64,000 bases of DNA, taken from the NCBI RefSeq assembly GCF_013306565.1, contig NZ_PZPO01000001.1, forward strand, positions 868,001 to 932,000. The letters are read 5' to 3'. Positions within the stretch are counted from its first letter, which is position 1. Every line of letters starts with the position of its first letter. Source of the stretch: Hyphomicrobium sulfonivorans (GTDB lineage: Bacteria > Pseudomonadota > Alphaproteobacteria > Rhizobiales > Hyphomicrobiaceae). The position numbers were made by a program, and so were the translations under genes. The notes beneath the pieces are model-generated. The model was not told where the DNA came from, did not search any database, and was given only the letters and a program-made list of their open reading frames with translations. Shown here one piece after another: positions 24,103-24,901 of the stretch.

Positions 24103-24131
24103 TCGGCGGCACGTTGATTGATTGAATTGGA

Positions 24132-24174
24132 GTGCTTCCGGAAAAGTGGGAACCGGTTTTCCGACAAGAAGCAC
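24132..24174 (+). repeat. Dispersed palindromic repeat, copy 1
   Basis: 43 bases beginning GTGCTTCCGGAAAA and ending TTTTCCG..AGAAGCAC, able to form a long hairpin around GTGGGAACCGG. A copy in reverse orientation at 60142-60184 matches at 40 of 43 positions. The flank ACAAAC(A/G)TCT is also shared, so the unit may be near 60 bases. This looks like one of the short intergenic palindromic repeats common in Hyphomicrobiales genomes. Confidence 0.75.
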
Positions 24175-24190
24175 GACAAACAAACATCTC

Positions 24191-24219
24191 GGGCCGTTCC
24201 GGTTGGGGCGGCCCTTTTT
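24191..24219 (+). terminator. Terminator after the two-module secreted protein
   Basis: GGGCCG / CGGCCC stem with a 12-base loop followed by five T. Confidence 0.65.
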
Positions 24220-24269: not shown

Positions 24270-24307
24270 CCAAAAAGAAAGCGGCGGCCGAGTGTCCGGC
24301 CGCCGCT
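24270..24307 (-). terminator. Terminator of pqqA
   Basis: Perfect 11-bp stem AGCGGCGGCCG / CGGCCGCCGCT with a six-base loop. On the minus strand it is followed by TTCTTTTTGG. It lies 29 bases past the pqqA stop. Confidence 0.85.
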
Positions 24308-24335
24308 CAAAATCTGTCAGCTAATTCGGATCGAA

Positions 24336-24425
24336 TTAGATGATGTCGATCTCTGCCGGCATGTAGGAGGTGACCTCAAGGCCAACTTCCTGCTCGCGAA
24401 CGGCTGGCTTGCTCCAAACCTTCAT
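24336..24425 (-). CDS. pqqA: PQQ precursor peptide PqqA (orphan)
   Basis: A 29-codon gene too short for usual gene calling. The product starts MKVWSKPAVREQEVGLEV and ends TSYMPAEIDII. Glu17 and Tyr21 lie in the E-V-T-S-Y motif, the Glu-x-x-x-Tyr pair that PqqE cross-links and that becomes pyrroloquinoline quinone. GLEVTSY and the acidic tail closely resemble methylotroph PqqA peptides. A perfect AGGAGG ribosome site sits seven bases upstream of the ATG, and a strong terminator follows, so it is a one-gene transcription unit. No pqqBCDE genes are in this window; they must be encoded elsewhere if PQQ is made. PQQ is the cofactor of periplasmic methanol and other alcohol or sugar dehydrogenases. 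Confidence 0.9.
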   Translation of the reverse strand: MKVWSKPAVREQEVGLEVTSYMPAEIDII

Positions 24426-24901
24426 TGTCTTTCCTCCTGCTAAAGCCTTGGCGGCGGGTACCGCCTGCCTGATGGACAATATGTAGCAACTTCACGCGAT
24501 AAACAGAAATCGCAATTGCGTGATGACGCGATAAGGGAATCTGATCGGCTCGATAAGATCGGCGCGTCATTTAATATAGTTGTTTTTCAATGGCTTGATA
24601 AATATCGACCCGATGGTCGGTTGTTGTGGTGCGCTTGTTCCGTGGTGCGCAGCACGGCTGGTATCACGGGAGGCGTGCGAATCGCGCGGTCCTGAGGGGG
24701 CCCCCACCCATCACTGTGGGGAGGCCGCTTCGCGATCCCCTCTGGCTTCTCCCTGCCGCAGATCCTTACAAGCCGTTTTTCCAATCGGAAGAATTTGCGC
24801 AAAACCTGCACGCCCGATTTTGCGGGCTTCTCAGGCAATTGCGTTAGCCTCCCTGCTGTAGCCGGAGTATCCGGCCCGCAGATACAACAGGGGCTTTTTG
24901 C
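24426..24901. other. Intergenic region upstream of pqqA
   Basis: 476 bases. The first 150 are unusually AT-rich for this genome and contain the spaced inverted repeat TCACGC ... GCGTGA (about 24492-24523) and GATAA-rich stretches, plausible operator or promoter DNA for the leftward pqqA. The right part contains a short hairpin (GCCCG-ATTTTG-CGGGC, about 24811-24826) followed by TTCTC. No supported gene. Confidence 0.4.

Follow-up and report, generated by a model that had tools for sequence, protein, structure and literature searches.

Genomes with several pqqA genes, solitary pqqA genes and the idea that the dose of the precursor is controlled separately are already in print, as passages of PMC9851590, PMC11317620 and PMC4109929 make clear. 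The closest described case is Hyphomicrobium denitrificans FJNU-6/FJNU-A26, for which five pqqA genes are reported, two in operons and three separate, with expression of pqqA1 (operon) and pqqA3 (separate) far above that of the other copies (passages of PMC9851590); second pqqAED clusters in this species are perhaps for anaerobic PQQ synthesis, according to a passage of PMC12423496. In Methylorubrum extorquens AM1, expression of the orphan genes pqqA2 and pqqA3 changes apart from that of the other pqq genes (passages of PMC11317620 and PMC6520949). The direction of their response to neodymium is worded differently in the results and in the discussion of PMC11317620, where PqqA is also suggested as a possible part of an alternative lanthanide uptake system. 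Methylophilaceae carry 3–12 pqqA copies and usually a single set of the remaining pqq genes (PMC4109929, in part), strain RH AL1 has three pqqA (PMC10848612, in part), and in Methylosinus trichosporium OB3b the transcript of a solitary pqqA was far above that of pqqE (11857 versus 166 in one column; passages of PMC3615186).

The pqqA gene described here lies in the window, the whole stretch of 64,000 nucleotides that was analyzed. It resembles the H. denitrificans case in genus name and in that one pqqA heads pqqABCDE and the others stand alone, but its genome holds four copies and one strong PqqE instead of five copies and a second pqqADE operon; the H. denitrificans passages of PMC9851590 mention no shared promoter element. 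The AM1 genes pqqA2 and pqqA3 are likewise stand-alone precursor genes, but belong to another genus (passages of PMC11317620 and PMC6520949), while Methylophilaceae are betaproteobacterial and the passages of PMC4109929 give copy counts rather than regulation. As in the window, the OB3b gene lies apart from pqqBCDE, and it had been missed by annotation, but it is the only pqqA described in the passages of PMC3615186, whereas the window gene is an additional copy. The arrangement of the genes is thus of a known kind, and what appears to be the previously unlooked-for part, worth following, is a putative promoter element upstream of many solitary copies. We found no report of such a shared element, in a literature search that left most subscription journals uncovered and does not establish its absence from print.

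The window gene and its counterparts in the genus

The first-pass annotation had proposed a 29-codon minus-strand gene for a PqqA peptide carrying the Glu17/Tyr21 pair in EVTSY, preceded by a perfect AGGAGG and followed, 29 bases after the stop, by a strong terminator. Coordinates, strand and peptide proved correct (Table 1): the frame translates as MKVWSKPAVREQEVGLEVTSYMPAEIDII, ends in TAA at 24338–24336, and scored above the cut-offs of both curated models, TIGR02107 (30.4 bits, cut-off 20; E = 2.4e-7) and PF08042 (30.6 bits, cut-off 21.1; E = 3.2e-7). The cross-link pair is present at E-x3-Y spacing and the AGGAGG is where it had been placed. A terminator-like hairpin was also found, although it starts 27 nt after the stop. 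The fold z-score at the gene was -3.41; a structured RNA in place of a peptide gene was rejected, since the longest stem in the predicted structure is the terminator hairpin and no Rfam family reached its gathering score.

Table 1. Features of the window pqqA locus
Feature	Position	Strand	Basis or detail
pqqA coding sequence, 29 residues, E17-V-T-S-Y21	24336..24425	-	frame translation; TIGR02107 and PF08042 matches
AGGAGG ribosome-binding site, 7 nt before ATG	24433..24438	-	read from sequence
Intrinsic-terminator-like hairpin and T tail	24279..24308	-	13 pairs, then TCTTTTT
-10-like TACATA; predicted transcript start near 24473	24480..24485	-	orthologs mostly TATATT-like in alignment
Putative solitary-copy promoter element ATMAG-N5-CTTAT-N17-GCGATT-N5-TTAT, 47 bp, exact match	24499..24545	-	conserved block in orthologs
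TTATCG, just upstream of the element	24551..24556	-	invariant in eight orthologs

Two further features were observed around the gene. A GGCGG...CCGCC hairpin occupies the leader just 5' of the ribosome site (24440–24470, minus strand), where it may serve as a stabilizer of a short mRNA, and G+C-rich repeats similar to it occur in several orthologs. At 24107–24196 (plus strand) lies a palindrome-rich, intergenic stretch, GGAAAACCGGTTCCCACTTTTCC, which has the look of a dispersed alphaproteobacterial repeat; Rfam BASRCI408 matches part of it at 36.4 bits, well below the gathering score of 398.

The genome of the window (3.55 Mb, 14 contigs) was searched for pqqBCDE and for other pqqA copies, as had been proposed, and four strong pqqA matches were obtained: one on contig C6 (the window), one on C9 and two on C8; the next match (E = 2.03) was dismissed as noise. 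The C9 copy heads pqqA-B-C-D-E, where TIGR02108, TIGR02111, TIGR03859 and TIGR02109 all exceeded their cut-offs, and the only PqqE of the genome to do so lies there, adjoining pqqBCD. The other three copies are solitary, those on C8 lying just after polA and beside the ileS-lspA neighborhood; we refer to the four loci as W (window), OP (operon), P (polA side) and Q (lspA side). Peptides are near-identical across the four loci, and that of W is one residue apart from that of OP. The first-pass annotation was right on the PqqA identity, on the stand-alone layout and, to judge by the one strong PqqE match lying on another contig beside pqqBCD, on the lack of pqqBCDE genes nearby, but 'orphan' is misleading for one of four copies, and a lone orphan in a PQQ-less genome is ruled out by pqqBCDE, with pqqD and pqqE among them, and three more pqqA. 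A neighboring protein of 187 residues is 98% identical to a protein of Hyphomicrobium sp. D-2, and the source organism is, to judge by its sequence, close to that strain.

We fetched 28 loci from other members of the genus, representing seven genomes besides that of the window. A positional counterpart of W, with sdhA adjoining, was present in all seven, OP in seven, P in six and Q in five; the contig carrying W in G007 ends early, and G004 and G007 are without several of the small neighbors. Glu17 and Tyr21, whose lack of conservation in close relatives had been named, like an absence of pqqE/pqqD from the genome, as refuting the proposal, are kept in 7/7 orthologs of W, the peptide being identical to that of the window in five and differing only at residue 22 (Leu22) in the other two. 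Where the residue is unchanged, codons of the W orthologs deviate from those of the window copy at 3–6 of 26 positions in six genomes, with 1 of 26 for the near twin G001; for the adjacent sdhA, silent divergence is 38–51% (13% for G001). Against sdhA these differences are low. The coding sequence thus seems to be constrained at silent sites as well, as would be fitting for a gene expressed at a very high level. The counterparts in all seven genomes and their near-invariant peptide argue that the window pqqA is old and has been kept beyond chance. In G007, a stretch that we read as a degenerate pqqA (L071, 1907–1730, minus strand) retains the solitary-copy element with 3 mismatches, which suggests that the group loses copies in addition to gaining them.

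Within a six-genome clade, residue 22, which adjoins the cross-linked tyrosine, is Met in 24/25 copies, across the four loci. The 66 copies outside the clade all have Leu, among them those of G004 and G007 that correspond to W, OP and P. A single copy inside the clade has Leu22 (L063); it is the fifth copy of G005 and has a second pqqE of its own nearby. Gene conversion, or co-adaptation with the one PqqE that serves the copies, would explain this pattern. The silent-site signal for gene conversion is weak: within-genome paralogs were not closer at silent codons than between-genome orthologs (mean divergence 0.27 over 40 pairs versus 0.19 over 88 pairs), and the paralog divergence, which was matched by as low a value in 14 of 1000 shufflings of genome labels, could also arise from shared codon habits. 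Within-genome uniformity is not general, since residue 28 is mixed within G016, G092, G098 and G005; residue 25 is mixed within G027.

Expression signals and copy number across the family

We recovered 91 copies of the family from loci fetched in 23 chosen, non-random genomes (78 family genomes have pqqA). Of the 84 loci, 82 contributed and two (L058, L071) yielded no copy by the recovery motif; this motif required an E/D-x-T-x-Y core, so that the retention of E17/Y21 in 91/91 copies is largely by construction. GGAG occurs at positions -16 to -4 in 89/91 copies versus 6/90 in a control stretch, and a terminator-like hairpin with a T-rich tail follows 82/91 (shuffled mean 7.9; upstream control 5/90), the hairpin and T tail of the window locus being kept in alignment across eight genus orthologs. 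Most family copies, those heading operons included, thus look like self-contained units. At the eight OP loci, pqqA is separated from the downstream operon genes by a conserved pair of hairpins, through which the precursor could exceed the enzymes even there.

Tandem arrays of three or four pqqA genes with identical peptides were seen in L072 (G019), L076 (G029) and L096 (G116), and nearly every gene in them has a ribosome site and a terminator-like hairpin to itself. Divergent pqqA genes near an additional pqqE, in L063 (G005) and L058 (G004), resemble the pqqAED clusters described in passages of PMC12423496.

When 103 family genomes were searched, 81 gave a PqqE match (E ≤ 1e-60), 78 a pqqA match (E ≤ 0.001) and 75 a PQQ alcohol dehydrogenase match (E ≤ 1e-40). 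Two or more pqqA were found in 64 of the 77 genomes having both pqqA and pqqE matches, and pqqA outnumbers pqqE in 59/77, four being the commonest pqqA count; these counts carry no completeness filter and come from a single-peptide search, in which divergent copies were possibly missed. G098 (71% complete) gave a pqqA match and none for PqqE, and four genomes have PqqE without a pqqA match, the query peptide being perhaps too distant. The number of pqqA correlates with that of PQQ dehydrogenases, for which only 12 candidates were scored in some genomes: rho is 0.66 across 77 genomes and 0.61 (p = 0.009) across the means of 17 genera. Among the 21 genomes of the largest genus no correlation was seen (rho -0.14). 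A rule of precursor dosage is thus only partly borne out, between genera and not inside the largest one.

An upstream element of many solitary copies

When upstream DNA was aligned by locus, the conserved block differed at each locus. W and P share the element layout at fixed spacing, followed by a -10-like sequence, and when W and P of the same genome were anchored on the element, 18–20 of the 20 core positions agreed, compared to 13–31 of 88 flanking positions (seven genomes). The element was derived from W and P, which therefore offer no independent test, and was scored as the best match in the 250 nt upstream of each copy. At up to 5 mismatches it precedes 48/91 copies, starting 81–145 nt before the ATG (median 117); over 20 shuffling rounds no sequence reached 5 mismatches and 0.27% reached 6.

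The element is present before 44/63 solitary copies versus 0/22 operon-head copies, a division that leaves out L074 (short upstream sequence) and counts in neither column the four tandem copies of L072, which are operon-adjacent and each carry the element, and L075, which is of unsure context and lacks it. The same contrast holds in the source genus (15/21 versus 0/9; Fisher 7e-4) and in other genera (29/42 versus 0/13; Fisher 7e-6), the relatedness of the genomes being ignored in both tests. The 19 solitary copies without it include all six Q-locus copies of the genus. Among the operon-head copies, L120 has a match with 6 mismatches.

Scanning both strands of 414,581 nt of fetched loci, which were chosen for holding pqqA and do not amount to a whole-genome test, returned 40 sites at up to 4 mismatches and none for the reversed pattern. 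Thirty-nine lie 60–170 nt before a recovered pqqA start and the fortieth lies 87 nt before the degenerate stretch of G007; the window holds a single such site, that of Table 1. Within these loci the specificity of the element is thus good. Exact matches in the window's own genome are those of the window copy and the P copy. A third site there, at 2 mismatches (L128 1501–1547, plus strand; G000:C8:104763-104809), has no evident small gene or pqqA beside it; on the opposite strand, a LysR-like frame begins in the region that it overlaps. Two other candidates were set aside: a wider operator built on the 20-base block ATTGCGATTTCTGTTTATCG, which has two sites in the genome (one exact, one at 3 mismatches) versus one for the reversed control, and a consensus promoter at 24601–24573, which in the alignment is confined to the window genome and the near twin G001.

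Precursor supply and its proposed control

We estimate at about 0.85 the probability that the window pqqA is a functional, vertically kept solitary copy with its own promoter, which feeds a distant PqqE. RNA polymerase would start as predicted from TACATA and give a short mRNA of about 195 nt, with one strong ribosome site and the PqqA frame, ending at the hairpin. The single PqqE of the distant C9 operon, together with PqqD, would then cross-link the peptide at Glu17/Tyr21, and the window copy would add precursor, of which one is consumed per PQQ. Measured from the putative -10, the center of the dyad would fall near -65 and GCGATT at about the expected position of a -35 box, a placement that would suit a putative activator upstream of the polymerase. 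Transcription, translation and processing of the gene, and binding of a regulator at the element, are steps that we infer from the DNA.

The gene had been interpreted either as a second copy boosting PQQ supply or as a precursor whose dose is regulated separately. These two meanings are not exclusive, although the presence of the element before solitary and not operon-head copies favors separate control, as solitary copies could through it have their precursor output set apart from the enzymes. The sequence pattern supports a precursor dose regulated apart from the enzymes. We regard as an even bet the broader proposal that many solitary pqqA of the family form a precursor regulon, with one regulator that recognizes the ATMAG-N5-CTTAT dyad and GCGATT-N5-TTAT and turns on the supply of precursor while leaving out the pqqABCDE enzymes, and that the dispersed copies also evolve together.

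Plain redundancy of gene dosage, in which the copy only raises total PqqA from a promoter that is not specially regulated, is a tentative and less probable account. It would fit the near-identical peptides of all four loci and the tracking of dehydrogenase number by pqqA number across genomes; in Methylovorus MP688, moreover, one pqqA copy is said, by the title of Ge 2015 as cited, to dominate PQQ synthesis. However, the loci of one genome differ in upstream sequence and conserved blocks, and 22/22 operon-head copies are without the element. A second role for the solitary-copy PqqA, such as lanthanide handling, in place of feeding PQQ synthesis could be imagined from the response of the Methylorubrum orphans pqqA2 and pqqA3 to the form of neodymium (passages of PMC11317620), but is improbable for a peptide that keeps the cross-link pair and the tail and is a single residue off the operon peptide. 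That the window gene is a decaying duplicate without function, a fate illustrated by the G007 stretch with its retained upstream site, is very improbable, given a place kept in 7/7 genus genomes, an intact peptide, low silent divergence and a conserved promoter block.

The element is relevant to PQQ production, as H. denitrificans is an industrial producer according to passages of PMC9851590. Being common to solitary copies and lacking from operon-head copies, it also makes it directly testable why methylotrophs retain additional precursor genes.
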